In this document: positions 23,776-34,119 of the stretch, one piece after another
Layout of the letters: each line of letters begins with the position of its first letter
Numbering within the stretch: the stretch's first letter is position 1
Program-made: the position numbers and the translations under genes
The notes under the pieces: model-generated
What the model was told of the DNA's origin: nothing
Seen by the model: the letters and a program-made list of their open reading frames with translations, nothing else
The model's database searches: none
Source of the DNA: Acidimicrobiales bacterium
GTDB lineage: Bacteria > Actinomycetota > Acidimicrobiia > Acidimicrobiales > Aldehydirespiratoraceae
Reading direction: 5' to 3'
Assembly (NCBI GenBank): GCA_029247365.1
Contig: JAQWLJ010000018.1
Coordinates: 1 to 46,770, forward strand
DNA length: 46,770 nucleotides

Positions 23776-26157
23776 TCAGTTCAAGGTGACGCGATCGAGG
23801 CGCCCGAGGTCCTTCAGGTCGTTGATCTGCAGCGTCCCGGGAGCGTCCGGACTGGCGTAACCCCACTCGGTACCGAGGGTCCAGAGTTCGTCGCCGTCGA
23901 GGACGATGGTTCGAACGATGGTGGGCATCTGGTTCCACCCAGGCCAACACATCCAGATGGTGGCGCCGTCGGAGACGGGGATTTCCATGCGTTCAGCTTC
24001 ATCGAGGAGCCAGGGCTCGTCGTAGCAGTCGAACCCGGTGGCTGACGGCTTCTCGCCGTCCTCACACAGGCGGATCTGCCCTTCTTCGTCGAAGGCGATG
24101 ATCCACTCGAGTTCGGATTCGAACGACTGCTCGTCGTTGGGGTCGAAGCCGCTGATGTCGTCGCCGGTGATGCGCCGGCAGCCGTTGACACCCCTGTCGG
24201 CGTCGGGGTCGGCGTGGTCGATGCGGCCGACCTCCGTGATGTCGGTGCCGTCGACTCGAAGGACGATCGCTCCGGCCCAGTGGCCATCCTCGTCGTAAGT
24301 CGTCAGCGGTACGACGGCCATCTGCTCGGCCTCCCACCACAGGAAGCTTCGGTGCTCCCAGCCAACGTCGTTCCAGCCGCCGGGGGCGGACCAGATCGCG
24401 ACCTCTTCAGGGTTGGCCGGATCGCTGACATCGAAGATTGAGACTTTCGAGCCGGTAATCCGACCGTCGTCGGTCCCATCGGACCCGACGCCGAGGACTC
24501 GGTCCTCCCCGATGGGGTGGAGGTAGCTGGAGAAGCCGGGGATCTTGAGCTCCCCAACCACTCGGGGGTTCTCGGGGTCGCTCAGGTCGAGGGTGTAGAA
24601 GGGGTCGATCTGGCGGAATGTGACGACGTAGCCGACGTCGCCGATCATGCGGACCGACTGCACGGCCTCGCCACGGCCCATGTCGCCAACCGAGCCGATC
24701 TCGACGAGTTCCCCCGCGTCTTCGCTCAGGACCCGAATGTGGGTCTCCGACGTCTCGTCCCACGTCTCGCCAGTGGTCGTGACGACCCGCAGATGGCCGT
24801 CGTACTCGCTCAGGTTGAACTGGTTGCGGATGTCACCCGCCACGGAGCCCGAGGCTACGTAGGCGGCATCATCGCCGGAGAGAGCGAAGCGGTGGATTGA
24901 GGTACGGCGAGCGTCCCACGCCTGCTGCCACGCGTCTTGTTCATTGTCGAAGAGGCTGATGTCGGCCCAGGTTTGGGTGGCGACGTAGACCGACTCCGTC
25001 GACGCGTACACGGTGTTGCCAGGGGCGAGGACGCTGGTGGTGGTGTGGTCAGCAATGTCGCCGGTGACGTCGACGTTGATCACCGAGAGCACGCCGAACC
25101 CAGAGAACTCAGTCGGGGCATGCACGGCTCCACAGTTGGGCAGGAGGCCGGTTTCGGTGGTGGCGCCGCTGGCGTCAACGATCCCGTAGGCGGGGAGCCA
25201 GGTGTCGAGGTTGGAGTCGAGCACGGCGACCCGGTTCGCGTTCTCGGCGATCTCTTCGCCCTTCTCGCTCTGGGGGTAGACAAACGGGAAGTTATACTGG
25301 GGGTTGCTGCGGACGATGACCCGGGCGGTGCCATCGATGGCCCGGCTCGAGACGTAGTCGCCCTCGACGAACATCTCGCTGATCAACTCGGGACGGTCGC
25401 CATCGAGCTGGATCCGAGCGATGCGCACGATGTCTGTCGCGCCGTACCAGTCTTCCTCGATCGCGATGTCGTCGTCGAACTCGGCATCGCTGTCCACGCC
25501 CTCGACCGAGCTGGTGGTGGCACCGTCGAGCGCGTTGTTGCCTCTCCAGCCCGAGCTGATCAGGAGCAGATCATCGCCGGCGAGAAAGAGCTCGCCCTGC
25601 CAGATGTCGTTTGGGAGATCGAGCGTGCCAACAACGTCTCGGGCAGACGCGTCGACCACGATGAGCTGACCGGCCGCGATCACGAAGACACGGTCGCCGT
25701 CGGTCTTGATGATGTCGGCCTCGTCGACGCCGATCTCCTGCACGTTGGTGCCGGAGAAGTCGACTCCCTCGACAGGTATCGCCGAGCCGCCGTCGGTCGA
25801 AGCTGCGCTGCTTTCGGCCATGTCGAAGCCTGCGTCGTCATCCATCGACTCGTCGACGGCCATTCCGTCGCGGGCGAAGACCGGTCCGAACCAGCCGTGG
25901 GTGTCGAAACCCCAGGGTGTGACCCGCTCGGCGGCCTCGGTGCGTAGGTGGTCGAGCAGGGCATCGCAGCTGTCGAAGCCGGAGAGGCCTGACGCCAACA
26001 CAATCTCGTTGCCTTCGATATTGATGACGACTTCGCCATCGTCGACCGTTGCCGGCGTGTTGTCGCTGGGCGAGGCCACCGGTTCGTCGCCGGTACACGC
26101 CACGGCGAAGAGCGTCACGCTCAGCAGGAGGGAGAGGGAGACAAGGATTCTGCGCAC
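23776..26157 (-). CDS. Secreted beta-propeller lipoprotein
   Basis: A 793-residue exported protein. GTG 26157 gives a proper lipoprotein signal (VRRILVSLSLLLSVTLFAVAC) with the lipidated Cys at about residue 20, and GGAAAG lies 7 bases upstream; the longer frame has no signal. The segment TNVQEIGVDEADIIKTDGDRVFVI is the hallmark of the beta-propeller domain family once called DUF2139-like/Beta_propel in secreted proteins of archaea and bacteria. The repeats run through most of the chain, and the C-terminus ends at a last propeller blade. The function is unknown. There are many acidic residues and few Lys, as is common for surface proteins. Confidence 0.82.
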   Translation of the reverse strand: MRRILVSLSLLLSVTLFAVACTGDEPVASPSDNTPATVDDGEVVINIEGNEIVLASGLSGFDSCDALLDHLRTEAAERVTPWGFDTHGWFGPVFARDGMAVDESMDDDAGFDMAESSAASTDGGSAIPVEGVDFSGTNVQEIGVDEADIIKTDGDRVFVIAAGQLIVVDASARDVVGTLDLPNDIWQGELFLAGDDLLLISSGWRGNNALDGATTSSVEGVDSDAEFDDDIAIEEDWYGATDIVRIARIQLDGDRPELISEMFVEGDYVSSRAIDGTARVIVRSNPQYNFPFVYPQSEKGEEIAENANRVAVLDSNLDTWLPAYGIVDASGATTETGLLPNCGAVHAPTEFSGFGVLSVINVDVTGDIADHTTTSVLAPGNTVYASTESVYVATQTWADISLFDNEQDAWQQAWDARRTSIHRFALSGDDAAYVASGSVAGDIRNQFNLSEYDGHLRVVTTTGETWDETSETHIRVLSEDAGELVEIGSVGDMGRGEAVQSVRMIGDVGYVVTFRQIDPFYTLDLSDPENPRVVGELKIPGFSSYLHPIGEDRVLGVGSDGTDDGRITGSKVSIFDVSDPANPEEVAIWSAPGGWNDVGWEHRSFLWWEAEQMAVVPLTTYDEDGHWAGAIVLRVDGTDITEVGRIDHADPDADRGVNGCRRITGDDISGFDPNDEQSFESELEWIIAFDEEGQIRLCEDGEKPSATGFDCYDEPWLLDEAERMEIPVSDGATIWMCWPGWNQMPTIVRTIVLDGDELWTLGTEWGYASPDAPGTLQINDLKDLGRLDRVTLN

Positions 26158-26245
26158 GTTGGCTTTCCAGTTCGGAGTAGATAAGTGATGGTCAGACGCC
26201 TGCACTCCCAGTCTGGTTCCCAAGAATCGCAGATTTCTCGGTGGG

Positions 26246-26839
26246 TTATGCTTGGGCAGGCATCCAGGGCTTGCGGTCGCTCTCGTAAGTGTCGATGTCT
26301 GACGCATATCGGAGCGTCAGGCCGATGTCGTCGAGGCCCTCCAAGAAGCGCTCTCGGACCGCCGAATCGAGCGGAAATGTCGTCTCGAGGCCGATCGCTG
26401 GGGCTTCGACGGTGAGGCGCTCGACGTCGATCGTGATCTCGAGCGTCGGGTCGGTCTGGACCGCCTCCATCAACTGGGCATTGATGTCCTCGGTGACCGC
26501 CACCGGCACGAGACCGTTCTTTGTGCAGTTGTTGCGGAAGATGTCGGCGAAACGCGGCGAGATGACGGCGTCGAAGCCGTACTGCTGGATCGCCCATACG
26601 GCGTGCTCACGGCTCGAGCCGGTCCCAAAATTGAGGCCCCCGATCAATATGCTGGCGCCGCTGTACTGCTCCTGGTTGAGCACGAAGTCGCGGTCGTCGC
26701 GCCATTCGGAGAAGAGACCCTTTTCGAAACCGGTGCGCTCTACTCGCTTGAGCCAGTCGGACGGGATTATCTGGTCGGTGTCGACGTCGGTGCGGTTGAG
26801 CGGGATCGCAGTTCCTGAGACGATTCGGACAGCCTTCAT
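26246..26839 (-). CDS. leuD: 3-isopropylmalate dehydratase small subunit
   Basis: A 197-residue swivel-domain subunit that pairs with LeuC to isomerise isopropylmalate in leucine synthesis, and citramalate in the pyruvate route to isoleucine. Typical features are GTAIPLNRTDVDTDQIIPSDWLKR near the start and LIGGLNFGTGSSREHAVWAIQQYGFDAVISPRFADIFRNN. The length is normal for the family. The ribosome site AAAGGAA lies 8 bases before ATG 26839. It follows leuC by 83 bases in the same direction. Confidence 0.96.
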   Translation of the reverse strand: MKAVRIVSGTAIPLNRTDVDTDQIIPSDWLKRVERTGFEKGLFSEWRDDRDFVLNQEQYSGASILIGGLNFGTGSSREHAVWAIQQYGFDAVISPRFADIFRNNCTKNGLVPVAVTEDINAQLMEAVQTDPTLEITIDVERLTVEAPAIGLETTFPLDSAVRERFLEGLDDIGLTLRYASDIDTYESDRKPWMPAQA

Positions 26840-28402: not shown

Positions 28403-29056
28403 GTGGAACTCAGTGTAAGCGGCGTTGGCGTTATCGACAAGGCCATGGCCGTGTTGGCTGCCGTCGACCCGAACGGTGCCAATCTTGGTGAACTTGTGGA
28501 GCGCACGGGTCTTTCCCGGGCAACAGCCCATCGGCTTGCGTCGGCGCTCGAGGTGCACGGCCTGCTCCGCCGTACCTCCGACGGCCGGTTTGCGCTTGGT
28601 TCCCGCCTTGTGACCTTGGGCTCGAGCGCTGCGGCCGGCTGGCCACTTGCCGACGCGGCCCGACCCGCGCTTGCGGAACTCCGAGACGTCACCGGCGAGT
28701 CTGCTCAGCTGTATGTCCGCGACGGTGATGCTCGCGTCTGCATCGCGTCGCTCCAGTCGCCCCATGGTCTGCGTACCATCGTCGCCGCCGGCGCGGTGTT
28801 GGCGCTTGGCCAGGGGTCAGGTGGTCGTGTGCTCACCGGCGAGGTCAGCGCCGAAGGCTGGGTGGCATCGGTGGCAGAGCGTGAGGCCGGCGTCGCCTCG
28901 GTCAGCGCACCGGTTTTTGATCGCGCCGGCGCCGTGATCGCTGCAGTGTCGGTGAGCGGTCCAATTGAGCGACTCACTCACGAGCCTGGCGGAGCCTATG
29001 GTCCAGCCGTGGCGATGGCGGCCGCCCGGATCGCGCAGGAGTCGGGAATCGCATGA
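28403..29056 (+). CDS. IclR-family regulator of leuCD (NdgR/LeuR type)
   Basis: A 217-residue regulator. The N-terminal winged helix (about residues 8-62) has [44 protein letters not shown]. The effector domain contains [56 protein letters not shown], very close in pattern to NdgR of Streptomyces and the Mycobacterium IclR gene, which sit in the same divergent position to leuCD. The effector domain is shorter than in those relatives, with a deletion around residue 135. The start is GTG; the stop overlaps the next gene's ATG (ATGA). Confidence 0.9.
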
Positions 29057-30360
29057 CCGGGGAGACTTCCCGTGACGAAGCTGAGGTCGGTACCTTCTCG
29101 ATCTGGTTTCTGCGCGGGGTCCTCGTGCTCACATGCCTCGTCGTTCTGGGCTTCCTCCTACACGCCGCGGTCGGGTTGTTCGGCGGCGACGGAACCGCCA
29201 GCGACGATGAGTCCACCAACGCTGAGCAGGTGATGGCCAGCGACGACGAATCGACCGACGAGACCTCCACCTCCTCGACGTCGCTATCGCCGAGCAGCGA
29301 GGCCCCAGCGACAACACCTATCCCGGACGGCAACCAAGAGCTCCAGGTCTTCGTTGATGAGGCGATTGGGTTCATCGAAGCGACCCGGCAACGAGCGTTT
29401 GTCGAGCGACCCGTCGTCGAAGTCGTCAGCGTCGACGCAATGACCGAGGTCGTGCTCGACGACATTCGCAAGACGTTGGCCGCTGACCCTGAGGCAGCCG
29501 AAGCAAGCCTCGCGCTTTCCCGTGCTATCGGGTTCTTTGGGCCAGCTGACGAGTTCCTCGGTGTCTACGAGGTTTTTGTCTCTGCTGGTGTGCTCGGTGT
29601 CTACTTCCCGGACTCCGACCGATTGCTGGTGCGCTCGGCGAGCGAGTTGACCCTCAGCACCAAGGCGACCATCGTCCACGAACTCGTGCATGCGTTTGAC
29701 GATCAGCACTTCGATCTTGATCGCAACGAATTGTCCGACGACGGCGATGCTGGCTGGACATTCGGCGCGGCTGTCGAGGGCAGTGCGTCCTGGGTCGAGG
29801 AGGCATGGCGGGCCACCCTGACGACCGACGAGGTTTCTGAGCTCCTTGAAGAGGAGTTGAGCTTTGACACCGGCGACATATTTTCGCTGGACTTCGGTTT
29901 TCTGGTCTACCAGACCTCGGTCTACGAGGCGGGACGTGTGTGGCTCGATCGCCGCGTTGTCGACGAAGGTATCGCCGCCATCGATGACGCGCTGATCAAC
30001 GGCGCTGCGAGCAGCGAGGTCGTCATGATGGCGCTCGACGCTCCAAACCTCGATCCGATCGACGTTGTGTCACCGGCGGTCGACGGCGAAGTGCTGTGGC
30101 AGGGCCGCGGCGGCCAAGCTCTCATCGCAGCACTCACGTTCCTTGCCGAACAGAGTGAAACCGCTGCCATCGGCTGGGGTGGTGATGCGATGACCGTCTA
30201 CTACGACAGCGAGGGCTTGGCATGCCTGCGGTGGGATCTGGTTGGCGACACCGCCATCGATACGAGCGAGATCTTCGAGGAGCTGGGTCGGTGGGTCACC
30301 GCGATCGGCGGCACCGCAGAAATGGTCGACGGGCTGGTTCGCATCGACCGCTGCGCTTGA
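29053..30360 (+). CDS. Membrane-anchored metallopeptidase-like protein (HExxH)
   Basis: A 435-residue protein with one hydrophobic segment near residues 17-42 and a Ser/Thr/Glu-rich linker to about 95, so the main domain should face outward. The zinc motif is His209-Glu-Leu-Val-His213 in TIVHELVHAFDDQHFDLD. A probable third ligand is Glu242 in AVEGSASWVEEAW, the arrangement of gluzincin peptidases. The pattern recalls the poorly known Hvo_1808-type surface proteins. No substrate is known. It overlaps the IclR gene by four bases and could be co-transcribed with it; it is convergent with the di-heme gene, with three bases between the stops. Confidence 0.72.
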   Translation: MTGETSRDEAEVGTFSIWFLRGVLVLTCLVVLGFLLHAAVGLFGGDGTASDDESTNAEQVMASDDESTDETSTSSTSLSPSSEAPATTPIPDGNQELQVFVDEAIGFIEATRQRAFVERPVVEVVSVDAMTEVVLDDIRKTLAADPEAAEASLALSRAIGFFGPADEFLGVYEVFVSAGVLGVYFPDSDRLLVRSASELTLSTKATIVHELVHAFDDQHFDLDRNELSDDGDAGWTFGAAVEGSASWVEEAWRATLTTDEVSELLEEELSFDTGDIFSLDFGFLVYQTSVYEAGRVWLDRRVVDEGIAAIDDALINGAASSEVVMMALDAPNLDPIDVVSPAVDGEVLWQGRGGQALIAALTFLAEQSETAAIGWGGDAMTVYYDSEGLACLRWDLVGDTAIDTSEIFEELGRWVTAIGGTAEMVDGLVRIDRCA

Positions 30361-30363
30361 GGG

Positions 30364-31797
30364 TCAGCGGCTCTCGACAAAGGCGATGATCGCGGCACGA
30401 TCTTCGCCCGTGAGGGCCATGAACGCGTCGGTGACGGGCCTGGCCTCGCCGCCGTGCCAGAGGATCGCTTCCTCGACCGAGCGGGCGCGCCCGTCGTGCA
30501 GGAGCGAAATATGGCCGTTGACTTCGTGCAGCAGTCCCACTCCCCACAGGGGTGCGGTGCGCCATTCGCTGCCCGACGCGCTGTATACGGGGCGGTTGTC
30601 GGCGAGCCCTGGTCCCATGTCGTGGAGGAGGAGGTCGGTGAAGGGATAAATGACGAGGTCATCGAGCTCAGGCGTATTGGTCGCACCGGTGCGCTGCTGC
30701 GGCGTGTGGCATCGAGTGCACCCGATCGATTCGAACAAGTTGGCCCCTGCGATCACCAGTGGATCGTCGATCTCGCGGCCGGCCGGGATCGCCAGGGCTT
30801 CGACGTAGAACGCAAGGTCGGCGAGTTCCTCGTCGCCAACCTCGATGTCGGCACCGATCGGATTGATCGACGTGCTGATCCCCATGTCCTCAGCGAGCGC
30901 GCTGGCCGATTGGTGGATGAGGTCGAAGTTCTCGGCCTTCCAGCCATGGCGACCGACCCGGCGAATGCCATCGGCATCGACAACCCACTGGACCTCGCCG
31001 GAGATGCCGTCGCCGTTGGTGTCGTCGGGATCGGCCGCGATGACGATGTCGGCCTCGGGTACGAACTCGAGTAGCCCGGGTCCGGCAACCTGGGGTGGAA
31101 TACGAAGGCTCAGTTCGGCGCCGACCGACAGCATCCCCTCGCGTCCGACGACGGAGACGACGGGGCGGCGGAGCTGATAGGTCGTGCCGTCGGGGTACTC
31201 ACCCTGCTCCTGTTCCCAAAGGATGTTGACCTGAGCCTCGGCTTCGCCGTCAACGGCGTACGTCTGCAAGCGGGTGCCGTAGCCAGGGAGCGCGAACGGT
31301 AACTCGAGCTCACCGGCACCGCTCTGGGAGATGTGGACAACCGGGCCGATGCCGAGGTAGGCACCGTCGACCGGCTCGCTCTGGCGCCCGTTGTTGTGGT
31401 GGCATGCGTTGCACCCGTTGCCGTTGAAGTCGGGACCGAGTCCGGTTTCGGGGGTGAAGAACGCTTCGAACGTCTCGTCTCCATCAGCAAAGCGAATGCG
31501 GGCGGCGAGCCCGATGTTGCGAGCCGACAGATTGTAGGACCGCTCACTGACCTCGAATGTGGTCGTCGCGTCGCCAGCTCGTTCGATGAGCCAAATGGGC
31601 GCGCTCGCGGCTGGTTCGGTCTTGACGCGCGCGAGGTCGGCGGCGGCTTCTGGGTTGGGTTGCGGTGCCTGGTCAGGCGGCGGTTCTGCGCTCTCTGCGC
31701 CGCCGCTGCAGCCCGCCCCGAACAGGGCGAGGACCACGACGACGCCGCAGAGCGTCAGACGACCTGAATCACCCGCCGGAGGGAACGGTGATCGCAT
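30364..31797 (-). CDS. Di-heme cytochrome c oxidoreductase, lipoprotein
   Basis: A 477-residue exported protein of the di-heme oxidoreductase (thiol oxidoreductase-like, DHOR) family. Signal peptide with a likely lipidated Cys30 (VVVVLALFGAGC). There are two c-type heme sites: CNACH at 129-133 and CTRCH at 360-364. The segment FTPETGLGPDFNGNGCNACH is typical of the family, as is the C-terminal TAPLWGVGLLHEVNGHISLLHDGRARSVEEAILWHGGEA. Electron partner and substrate are unknown. Its start overlaps the end of the beta-helix gene by 29 bases, so both are surely one operon. In other bacteria relatives often neighbour imelysin genes; none is seen here. Confidence 0.88.
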   Translation of the reverse strand: MRSPFPPAGDSGRLTLCGVVVVLALFGAGCSGGAESAEPPPDQAPQPNPEAAADLARVKTEPAASAPIWLIERAGDATTTFEVSERSYNLSARNIGLAARIRFADGDETFEAFFTPETGLGPDFNGNGCNACHHNNGRQSEPVDGAYLGIGPVVHISQSGAGELELPFALPGYGTRLQTYAVDGEAEAQVNILWEQEQGEYPDGTTYQLRRPVVSVVGREGMLSVGAELSLRIPPQVAGPGLLEFVPEADIVIAADPDDTNGDGISGEVQWVVDADGIRRVGRHGWKAENFDLIHQSASALAEDMGISTSINPIGADIEVGDEELADLAFYVEALAIPAGREIDDPLVIAGANLFESIGCTRCHTPQQRTGATNTPELDDLVIYPFTDLLLHDMGPGLADNRPVYSASGSEWRTAPLWGVGLLHEVNGHISLLHDGRARSVEEAILWHGGEARPVTDAFMALTGEDRAAIIAFVESR

Positions 31798-33148
31798 CGA
31801 GGTCGAACGTATCGAACTCCGGAATCACGTCGGCGGTCACCGGCGGCGCAGTCATCGGATCGACCATGCTCATCTGGTCGTCGGCGCCGGGGCTGGCGAC
31901 GTCCTCGTATGGCATGTTCTCGTCTGCCGCTGGTGGGGCGAAGAACTCGATCCCGATCATGTCGCTGAGATCGCCTTGCGGTCCGTCGCACGGCAAGACG
32001 GTTTCGATATCGGCGGGCCGGGAGGTCTCGTAGTCGTTGTCGGCGAAGCAGTTACCAAGACCGTCGCCTTCGGCCTGCTGAACCATCACGATGTCGATGC
32101 CGTTCCCGGTGAAGACGTTCTCTCGGATCTGGTTGTCGGTTGCCTGCCAGAAGACGTCGCCGTCGGGAAGGAACGACACCGCGACACCACCGTTACGGTT
32201 ACCTTCGATCAGGTTGCGAAGCACCAGGTTCTCGTTGGCGCCCGGCAGCACCATGCCGACGCCGTACGCGAGCTCCCAGATGTCGCCACCCTTGCTGGTA
32301 TCGGGGTTGCCGTTGGAGTGAATCCAGTTTCCAGCAAATACGCCGCCTCGCTGCGGCGCAAGCTCCTCGGAGCTGAGCGTGTTGGGCGTGACGCCGATGC
32401 GATTAAGACGGAACTCGTTGTTGACGATGTAGAGCTCGCCGCCGGCGTTCGTGCCGGAGTAGGCGAGGGTGTTGTACTCCGAGATGTTGTCGGTGAGGAG
32501 CACTCGGCATGGCTGGCACTGGCCGATGTAATACCCCGAGTCGGTGTGACCGGCGGCGTAGCTGTTCTCGATCAGGCCGTAGGAGGCGTTGAACGCGTAG
32601 ATGCCGTACTTGCGGTTGTTGAGCGCCGTGACGTGGCTGATCCGGTAGCCCTCGAGGACGAAGTCGGAGTCGTAGTCGCCGGTGAAGAACACGCCGTTAC
32701 TGAAGTAGTTCTGGACGGTCAGGTTCTCGACGGCGACGCCGTTCGAGAAGACGATGATTCCGTTCGCGAGGTCCTCAGAGTGCATGCCGTCAAGCACGAC
32801 ACCCTGGCGGTCGACGCCGCGGATCACGATGTTGTCGGTCTCGACTGCAACGGACTCGTTGTAGACGCCCGCACCGATCAGCACGATGTCGCCAGGGGTT
32901 GCAGCGTCGACGGCTTCCTGGATGGTGGGGTAGTCCTCAGGGACGCGCAGCGCGTCGAGCGGGTTCGGGTCCTCTTCGGGCTCGGGCTCTTCTTCGGGCT
33001 CGGGCTCTTCGTCAGACTGCGGGTCTGCCTCGTCGCCGACATCGCCGGTCGAGTCGCCGATGCCGGTCTCGGTTGCGTTGTCAGACTCGCCACCGCATGC
33101 CGTCGCAGTGAGAGCCAGTACGAACAGAAGAGCCAAGAATCGGCGCAT
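31769..33148 (-). CDS. Right-handed parallel beta-helix lipoprotein
   Basis: A 459-residue exported lipoprotein (MRRFLALLFVLALTATAC, lipidated Cys18) at ATG 33148 with a strong GGAGG site. An acidic Glu-Pro linker (about residues 40-58) leads to a pectate-lyase/NosD-like beta-helix beginning YPTIQEAVDAATPGDIVLIGAGVYNESV. Near the middle is YYIGQCQPCRVLLTDN with a CxxC, and further Cys lie in LGNCFADND and VLPCDGPQG. The CxxC and later Met-rich tail (ENMPYEDV, DQMSMVDPM) could bind copper or form disulfides; this is inference. It sits between a cupredoxin gene and a di-heme cytochrome gene. Confidence 0.82.
   Translation of the reverse strand: MRRFLALLFVLALTATACGGESDNATETGIGDSTGDVGDEADPQSDEEPEPEEEPEPEEDPNPLDALRVPEDYPTIQEAVDAATPGDIVLIGAGVYNESVAVETDNIVIRGVDRQGVVLDGMHSEDLANGIIVFSNGVAVENLTVQNYFSNGVFFTGDYDSDFVLEGYRISHVTALNNRKYGIYAFNASYGLIENSYAAGHTDSGYYIGQCQPCRVLLTDNISEYNTLAYSGTNAGGELYIVNNEFRLNRIGVTPNTLSSEELAPQRGGVFAGNWIHSNGNPDTSKGGDIWELAYGVGMVLPGANENLVLRNLIEGNRNGGVAVSFLPDGDVFWQATDNQIRENVFTGNGIDIVMVQQAEGDGLGNCFADNDYETSRPADIETVLPCDGPQGDLSDMIGIEFFAPPAADENMPYEDVASPGADDQMSMVDPMTAPPVTADVIPEFDTFDLDAITVPSGG
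32975..33010. repeat. Two tandem 18-bp repeats encoding the Glu-Pro linker
   Basis: Two identical consecutive copies of an 18-base unit beginning TTCGGGCTCGGG on the plus strand encode the acidic EEPEPE-type linker of the beta-helix lipoprotein. The copy number may vary between strains. Confidence 0.7.
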
Positions 33149-33197
33149 TACATCCCTCCAGATGGGTTCCGCACGTGAGCGTAGCGTCGTGGCTCGG

Positions 33198-33716
33198 TCA
33201 GGCCGAATCGGCGGGAACGACGATGATGCGCCCGGTCTGCCCGTTGGTTGCAGTGCCGTGCAGGCTGCAGAAGTAGGGATAGTCACCGGGCTCGGTGAAG
33301 ACGCGCGAGGCGGAGTCACCCTTCATTGCGAGCGCCGTCGCCGAGATCGAATCGAAGGCTCCTTCGATCGCCGGCCGCACGTTGTGCTCGTTGCGCCCTT
33401 GGTTGGTCCAGGTGAGCTCGGTACCGGCCGTGACGACGACGACGCGCTGGTCGAAGGCGTTGTCTTGGACGTCAATCCCGACAGCACCTCGACCAGTCCA
33501 GTCGAGAGCATCGTCGGGGATCTCGATCGGTATCGGCCCGCTCGGCTCCGGGTCGATAGCGGCTCCCTCCAGCGCGTCGAGGTCGACGCTGAGTGTCTCG
33601 GTCTCGACAATCGGTTCCCGCCCAGCCCGCCGCCCATCGAACAAGCCCACGGGGTCGTCGCCGGCACACGAGGCCGAAAGCAGGCAGAAGAGAAGGGCGA
33701 TGCCGGCGCGCACCAC
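33198..33716 (-). CDS. Cupredoxin-domain lipoprotein with a Gln in place of the axial Met
   Basis: A small exported blue-copper-like protein. The signal peptide GIALLFCLLSASC ends in a lipobox Cys. The plastocyanin fold occupies about residues 75-170: VVVVTAGTELTWTNQGRNEHNVRP and DYPYFCSLHGTATNGQTGRIIVV. Copper ligands are His111, Cys150 and His153; the expected axial Met is Gln160. The longest start is GTG 33716 (172 residues). The GTG at 33713 is preferred because a TATCGT -10 box ends 7 bases before it. It is the first gene of a cluster with the beta-helix (49-base gap) and di-heme genes and probably carries electrons between surface redox proteins. Confidence 0.82.
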   Translation of the reverse strand: MVRAGIALLFCLLSASCAGDDPVGLFDGRRAGREPIVETETLSVDLDALEGAAIDPEPSGPIPIEIPDDALDWTGRGAVGIDVQDNAFDQRVVVVTAGTELTWTNQGRNEHNVRPAIEGAFDSISATALAMKGDSASRVFTEPGDYPYFCSLHGTATNGQTGRIIVVPADSA

Positions 33717-34119
33717 GGAGACGATATCGGTCAGACGACTCGGTCGGCGATCGGGGTCGCCATGTCGCTACCGGGTTCTTGGGAGGCATCGGCCGCGCTG
33801 ATCAAGCGGAATGGTCAACTCGTAAACTGGGCGAGCTCGCGCCCTGCGTGGACTACATGAGGCGAGGAGGCAGAGCGGATCTCATCGATGAACCATTGGG
33901 GTGATTCATGGGATCGTGCTCTCCGCTCACGGGAAATGCGTCCGTGAACCGCTGGTCCACGGGCCGACTGGCGTCAGCGCTTCAAAGCAGAGAGACCAGT
34001 TGACCGACACGACCGTCCTCGAGTTCGGTCATATCGGGATGCGCCGTCGTTCACGTGACGTTGGCGATTTGCCCGGTCGAGGTTAGTGATCGCCCCATCG
34101 GTTCCGCTCTGGGCCCCGT
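33717..34119. other. 403-base gap without a supported gene
   Basis: Apart from the cupredoxin promoter at its left edge I see no convincing gene. A stem can form between 33878-33885 and 33908-33915 (8 pairs, one G-T) with a 22-base loop. There is no T tract after it. The tail end carries the region downstream of greA but no clear terminator. Confidence 0.3.
33721..33726 (-). promoter_or_regulatory. -10 box of the cupredoxin cluster
   Basis: TATCGT on the minus strand, 7 bases before the GTG at 33713. It decides between the two adjacent GTG starts if the message is leaderless. Confidence 0.4.

Follow-up and report, generated by a model that had tools for sequence, protein, structure and literature searches.

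A cupredoxin, a beta-helix protein and a di-haem oxidoreductase as a candidate electron-transfer module in an Acidimicrobiales genome

Why should genes for a blue-copper-like protein, a right-handed beta-helix protein and a di-haem oxidoreductase lie side by side? The question is raised by a contig of an Acidimicrobiales bacterium (GCA_029247365.1, JAQWLJ010000018.1; its whole length of 46,770 nucleotides is the window), whose minus strand encodes a cupredoxin (CUP), a beta-helix lipoprotein (BH) and a protein of the DHOR family (PF06537), in this order. A first-pass annotation had described three adjoining genes with these identities, the last two overlapping by 29 bases, and two haem sites in the last protein. 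The open reading frame coordinates bear out the layout, except that the cluster ends at 33716 rather than 33726. The identities also stand, since the PF00127, PF13229 and PF06537 matches all exceed their gathering scores, and so do the haem sites, which are invariant in 18 aligned DHORs. Taken together, the results described below lead us to favour, tentatively and at a probability of roughly 45%, a membrane-anchored electron-transfer module in which BH acts as docking hub, CUP as carrier and DHOR as probable peroxidase.

A conserved pair with alternative partners

The source assembly comprises 3,110,708 bases in 75 contigs and is 98.2% complete. Across this whole genome PF06537, TIGR03805 and PF00127 each match at a single locus, and because these three loci adjoin, the trio is more than a set of chance neighbours; with the conserved linkage found in other genomes, chance adjacency is rejected. 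The gap between CUP and BH is 49 bases (with the BH start placed at an ATG of our choosing; the mechanical reading frame extends to a GTG at 33319). The 29-base overlap of BH and DHOR is repeated in all seven of the loci L155-L161.

Related loci were picked by BH matches, and the counts that follow are therefore not prevalences. The TIGR03805 matches used for this choice were nearly all below an E-value of 1e-9. A further 80 loci, the top 80 of a longer list, came from searching named genomes with a 20-row BH alignment, and six genomes represent a genus whose genomes measure about 1 Mb. After near-copies were dropped, 161 BH rows became 148 loci. Families were called on stop-to-stop frames using hidden Markov models built iteratively from the same loci, with a distance limit of 1.5 kb for partners and 3.5 kb for cupredoxins. 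Gene calls in the neighbour tables came from a codon-usage script and are unreliable in AT-rich loci (such as L171 and L173). Separately, an even draw of 198 genomes from the class gave TIGR03805 matches in 116 at E ≤ 0.001, none above the cut-off of the model, and DHOR above cut-off in 18.

The third partner of BH was DHOR at 29 of the 148 loci, DUF1996 at 42 and a two-domain multicopper oxidase (MCO) at 14. Of the 29 DHOR loci, 28 were called by the models; in the remaining one, L159, the DHOR gene starts right at the end of the contig and owes its label to gene clustering. The first-pass annotation had named conserved adjacency elsewhere as the check on its proposal, and such adjacency was found: a cupredoxin accompanies BH in 27 of the 29 distinct BH-DHOR loci, while in the other two the BH domain starts 825 (L175) and 151 (L179) bases from the contig end. 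Overall, a cupredoxin lies near BH at 111 of the 148 loci, and at 36 it shares one open frame with BH. Three such fusions were scanned for a PLDc_N-type membrane tail; L083 and L109 scored above cut-off and L103 just under. A fourth family appeared in Streptomyces, Amycolatopsis, Saccharothrix and Actinokineospora, where a divergent DyP peroxidase gene adjoins BH at 13 of 13 loci. Pfam checks agreed with the partner labels (DUF1996 5.1e-41 and 2e-36; Cu-oxidase_3 4e-27; DHOR 1.5e-58 for the shortened L063 protein), and the nearest solved structure to the L202 MCO is a two-domain MCO (3gdc). No PDB relative of DUF1996 was found. In a fungus, DUF1996 deletions are reported to raise sensitivity to oxidation and to several metal ions, Cu2+ not among them (PMC4738358).

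Judged by these sequence comparisons, CUP and BH form a conserved pair, often as a single polypeptide, beside alternative partners. The trio in the window represents one of the three forms of a wider module that include a cupredoxin, with CUP and BH constant and the third partner dependent on lineage. The fusions and the conserved adjacency speak for a physical unit; they also make it reasonable to read the set, as the first-pass annotation did, as an electron chain or a copper-dependent oxidation system on the outside of the membrane. Three of the partner families (diheme DHOR, two-domain MCO, DyP peroxidase) are oxidising metalloenzymes, and a fixed hub with exchangeable oxidoreductases and a type-1-like cupredoxin is most simply understood as an electron-transfer module. 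Two further observations concern the partners of BH. A family of about 233-301 amino acids (some gene calls are cut) adjoins BH at 9 of the 20 cupredoxin-poor loci that were compared and is a possible further partner; three members (L200:7211-8116, L212:7226-8131, L183:4133-4933) gave no Pfam match at E ≤ 0.01. At L073:1-3386 a single DUF1996 gene lies between two BH genes, the upstream one truncated by the contig start.

In the model that we favour, the three genes would be an operon-like module whose products are anchored on the outside of the cytoplasmic membrane. BH would provide a rigid docking hub, with the partner enzyme docking at its variable segment, and CUP, with a type-1-like copper site carrying an axial Gln, would shuttle single electrons between a membrane chain or outside donor and the docked enzyme. 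DHOR would probably reduce hydrogen peroxide through its two c-haems with electrons from CUP, much as bacterial diheme peroxidases draw theirs from small redox proteins. The direction of electron flow and the substrate are what we infer.

Traits that track the partner

The length of a variable BH segment (bounded by NG.FF and GYR, both ends counted) follows the partner family: 19 residues in all 29 DHOR-linked BHs, 12-13 in all 42 linked to DUF1996, 12 in all 14 linked to MCO and 35-37 in all 13 linked to DyP. The axial copper residue of the cupredoxin follows it as well, being Gln in 26 of 27 DHOR-linked proteins and Met in all 37 linked to DUF1996 and all 14 linked to MCO. On a BH tree of 125 rows (23 remote, fragmentary or redundant rows were excluded), two changes of partner label are needed among the rows having a label and four changes of axial residue, and an approximately unbiased (AU) test did not reject a single clade of DHOR-linked BHs (p 0.485). 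A bolder version of the electron-transfer model, which we hold to be speculative and unlikely, would make BH a plug-board: a hub, mostly with its own cupredoxin, would have swapped whole oxidoreductase families (DHOR, DyP, MCO, DUF1996) while docking segment and axial ligand were retuned, and, at its boldest, the partner would oxidise the hub to create a protein-derived cofactor read by CUP.

The BH-DHOR linkage occurs in two chromosomal contexts. The first is bounded on one side by greA (GreA_GreB), a leuB-like Iso_dh gene and an ilvE-like Aminotran_4 gene, in the window and in L155-L163 as far as contigs reach, and on the other by an aconitase-family leuC/leuD-like pair, at 15 loci including L164, L168-L170, L172, L174 and L175. 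In the second (L177, L178, L179, L182, L185, L187), the surroundings are fpg/Ldh_1/ClpP/VCA0040-like and DHOR is encoded on the opposite strand. Thus, the linkage either survived at least one relocation or arose by two assemblies.

A tree of 32 DHOR rows (excluding fragments shorter than 900 bases as well as five redundant loci) placed 20 of 20 BH-linked DHORs on one side of a branch (Shimodaira-Hasegawa-like approximate likelihood ratio test, SH-aLRT, 84), apart from 12 other DHORs of the class. No CUP or BH match was found in the stretches around these 12, that of L067 being a 4.2 kb contig only. Some DHORs away from BH adjoin imelysins (L085, L086, L089) or lie near solute-binding-protein genes (L091, L093), a setting that suggests metal handling of the EfeO/EfeB kind. 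Here CUP-BH would bind Fe(II) or Cu(I), and a haem peroxidase (DHOR or DyP) would oxidise either the metal or its ligand, so that the metal could be taken up or detoxified. EfeO joins a cupredoxin-like domain at its N-terminus to an imelysin-like (M75) domain at its C-terminus and works next to a peroxidase, and imelysin operons are also a site of DUF1111 (di-heme peroxidases) (PMC3143127). EfeUOB and the imelysin-DHOR operons thus share with the window a cupredoxin domain and an extramembrane haem peroxidase, of DyP or DUF1111/DHOR kind (PMC3143127, PMC3577903), and the fusions likewise place the cupredoxin N-terminal to BH. However, the window module has a beta-helix where EfeO has M75, none of its three proteins is M75 in a Pfam scan, and the genome gave no match to the FTR1 permease (EfeU). 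Moreover, DyP-linked BHs lack a cupredoxin, other DHORs (L087, L088, L102) have neighbours with no link to iron, namely a chaperonin, a sensor kinase and a DUF4147/MOFRL protein, and retention of the His-Cys-His type-1 set would favour electron transfer over transient metal binding. We consider metal handling unlikely as the function of the trio, though worth keeping in view.

Predicted properties of the three proteins

An AlphaFold2 model of the window BH has a mean predicted local distance difference test (pLDDT) score of 87.3. In VIA fold comparison it matched AlgE epimerases best (Z 33.7, root-mean-square deviation 2.7 over 298 residues, 18% identity) and NosD of NosDFY(L) at Z 28.1-28.2 with 276-280 residues aligned. 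The latter match, with a PF05048 NosD score of 30.7 bits against a gathering score of 23.6, is what would be expected if BH were a NosD-like docking protein that gives copper to CUP and the partner enzyme. The curated NosD model TIGR04247, with its cut-off at 300 bits, gave 46.2, however, and the genome has no NosL match and no credible NosZ (one partial match of 24.6 bits, cut-off 625). BH is accordingly rejected as NosD, and the functional analogy that the first-pass annotation had drawn is not supported. A role in metal-centre assembly is also improbable, as haem proteins (DHOR and DyP) make up two of the partner families, BH resembles AlgE-type epimerases more closely than NosD, and no His is invariant in an alignment of 26 BH sequences. 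The best structural matches, which include mannuronan C-5 epimerases and alginate and pectate lyases, raise the prospect that BH acts on or binds cell-surface or external polysaccharide, with copper and haem partners oxidising the polymer. The same fold is nevertheless found in non-enzymes such as NosD, neither His nor Lys is among the invariant BH residues, and the scan of window neighbours revealed no gene recognisable as acting on polysaccharide; of all the explanations considered, we find this the hardest to credit.

The variable segment comes after a strand of the predicted fold, and the CxPC and GTNAGG stretches likewise each come after a strand or close one; as read from strand order rather than coordinates, the three may lie on one face of BH. 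The first-pass annotation had pointed to a CxxC motif and a Met-rich tail. The CxxC is invariant, whereas the tail, though present in the window, where the final 60 domain residues include 5 Met, is not a family feature (1-5 Met in the 29 DHOR-linked BHs, mode 2), so that a copper motif is rejected there. One Met, M428, is nearly invariant in the 26-sequence alignment, and several Tyr are fully invariant.

The window CUP scores 31.8 bits against the type-1 cupredoxin profile PF00127 (gathering 21.2), and its closest solved relatives by sequence include plastocyanin and amicyanin. It is below the curated NCBIfam cut-offs for plastocyanin (26.6/87.85 bits), halocyanin (32.9/93.8) and amicyanin (23.8/110.2), and has Gln160 in place of the axial Met of these proteins proper; Met is the axial residue in 58 of 68 aligned cupredoxin rows. 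At L077:5924-6490 there is a tandem pair of cupredoxin-like domains, the second without copper-ligand Cys and His. Lipoprotein signals had been ascribed to all three window proteins. The lipobox is clear in BH and plausible in DHOR, but the CUP signal (LSASC) does not meet the pattern. Across the DHOR-linked loci the pattern is met by 26 of 29 BHs, 15 of 27 CUPs and 16 of 28 DHORs, and some DHORs show a membrane-helix-like N-terminus instead.

The window DHOR scores 257.8 bits against PF06537 (gathering 22). DHOR domains are said to appear to act with probable peroxidase activity (PMC9638140). Two adjoining PF01578 cytochrome c assembly matches lie at G000:C7:17548-19862, and ResB had no match in a profile search of the genome, which suggests, at the level of sequence, haem assembly of the CcmF/CcmC type in the source actinobacterium; we count the pair in support of a copper-haem module.

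Two c-haem motifs per chain also characterise bacterial cytochrome c peroxidases (bCCPs), BthA and MauG. The bCCPs receive electrons from small redox proteins, and Trp residues in a partner protein are the substrate of the diheme enzyme MauG, which oxidises them (PMC6405878). By analogy with the latter, DHOR, DyP or MCO would oxidise BH residues into a cofactor and CUP would accept electrons, as amicyanin does from methylamine dehydrogenase. The presence of amicyanin among the closest relatives of CUP, the invariant Cys211, Cys214 and Tyr residues of BH, and the fact that three of the four partner families are one-electron oxidants would all suit such maturation. Yet BH bears no sign of a modified residue, conservation of aromatic residues and Cys fits fold stability equally well, and the chemistry of the DUF1996 partner and catalysis by BH are not known. 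From bCCPs, BthA and MauG the window DHOR differs in belonging to PF06537. We rate maturation of this kind as rather improbable.

Weight of the evidence and relation to known systems

Several observations weigh against the electron-transfer reading. The BH-DHOR pair was found in only 4 of the 198 class genomes (G000, G149, G169, G187; G080, whose contigs are short, was not counted). At 63 of the 148 BH loci there is no DHOR, DUF1996 or MCO within 1.5 kb, many of these loci being fused CUP-BH in which no partner was seen. To our knowledge, no redox cofactor has been described for DUF1996, which is the most frequent partner. The absence of a cupredoxin match at 13 of 13 DyP-linked loci means that CUP is not required in every version. 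The partner-dependent traits also have exceptions: L163 has a DHOR-linked cupredoxin with axial Met, L068 and L176 carry the 19-residue segment and Gln without an adjoining DHOR (their scanned neighbours are NUDIX, CBS, HTH, glycosyltransferase, inositol-phosphatase, DUF3040 and DNA-polymerase-like genes), and axial Gln occurs without DHOR in L122, L124, L135 and L186. Furthermore, the correlations of segment length and axial Gln amount to about one independent event. With a single independent pair, the two traits are lineage marks and alone no proof of co-adaptation, and repeated co-adaptation of axial Gln with DHOR is rejected. As for DHOR itself, the AlphaFold2 model is poor (mean pLDDT 51.5), no PDB relative was found by single sequence and a profile gave only short cytochrome stretches, a Pfam scan at E ≤ 0.1 gave no CCP_MauG (PF03150) match, and the 'putative peroxidase' of PF06537 is a family label.

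Among the nearest described arrangements is that of the TIGR03805 beta-helix family, paired according to its NCBIfam description with the TIGR03806 diheme family, which we take to be the HNE_0200 family, also the SO2930 family diheme cytochrome. As in the window, an exported beta-helix protein adjoins a diheme c-type protein. In contrast, the window BH is under the TIGR03805 cut-off (3.3e-24, 85.5 bits against 141.5), the partner is DHOR, and a cupredoxin is added. DHOR was rejected as a TIGR03806 protein since the source genome has no match to that model; within the class, one of 198 genomes has one, under cut-off. This described pairing makes a beta-helix with a diheme protein less new. We know of no beta-helix partner for bacterial diheme peroxidases or MauG. 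No paper on this cluster was found in the open-access literature searched, subscription journals being mostly outside the search, and the addition of a cupredoxin and the exchange of partners appear to be undescribed in the searchable literature.

Table 1. Positions of the cluster and of its conserved residues in the window
Feature	Position	Strand	Details
CUP gene (cupredoxin)	33198..33716	-	172 aa, GTG start, possible lipoprotein; PF00127 1.9e-7
His111, first copper ligand	33384..33386	-	H in 67/68 cupredoxin rows
Cys150, copper ligand	33267..33269	-	C in 67/68 cupredoxin rows
His153, copper ligand	33258..33260	-	H in 67/68 cupredoxin rows
Gln160, axial position (Met in plastocyanins)	33237..33239	-	alignment to plastocyanin 1m9w
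BH gene (right-handed beta-helix lipoprotein)	31769..33148	-	459 aa; PF13229 Beta_helix 9.9e-12
BH partner-dependent segment NGVFFTGDYDSDFVLEGYR	32642..32698	-	residues 151-169
BH CxPC motif (Cys211, Cys214)	32507..32518	-	both Cys fully conserved in the 26-sequence BH alignment
Second conserved BH Cys pair (Cys367, Cys387)	within 31988..32050	-	nearly invariant in 26 sequences
BH/DHOR overlap	31769..31797	-	29 bases
DHOR gene (PF06537, di-haem oxidoreductase)	30364..31797	-	477 aa, probable lipoprotein; 2.1e-76
Haem-binding motif 1, CNACH	31399..31413	-	CxxCH invariant in 18 aligned DHORs
Haem-binding motif 2, CTRCH	30706..30720	-	CxxCH invariant in 18 aligned DHORs

Two neighbouring genes were compared across 34 neighbourhoods. 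Convergent with DHOR is a gene for an Hvo_1808-like surface protein (29053-30360, plus strand; NF038145 79 bits, cut-off 200), whose presence in 6 of the 34 is likely to reflect synteny rather than membership of the module. Further away, an 843-aa PF09826 beta-propeller protein (23776-26307, minus strand; 7.4e-122) is encoded downstream of leuC/leuD-like genes, a position that its gene retains in 9 of the 34.

If the electron-transfer model is true, it would give a physical context to families whose function is untested, namely bacterial DUF1996, PF06537 away from imelysins and TIGR03805-like beta-helices, and would tie them to one actinobacterial electron-transfer hub. The actinobacteria concerned are known mostly from metagenome-assembled genomes; they include the sampled genus whose genomes measure about 1 Mb, where fused CUP-BH proteins occur. 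The exchange of partners, together with a BH segment that matches them, makes the docking hypothesis directly testable.

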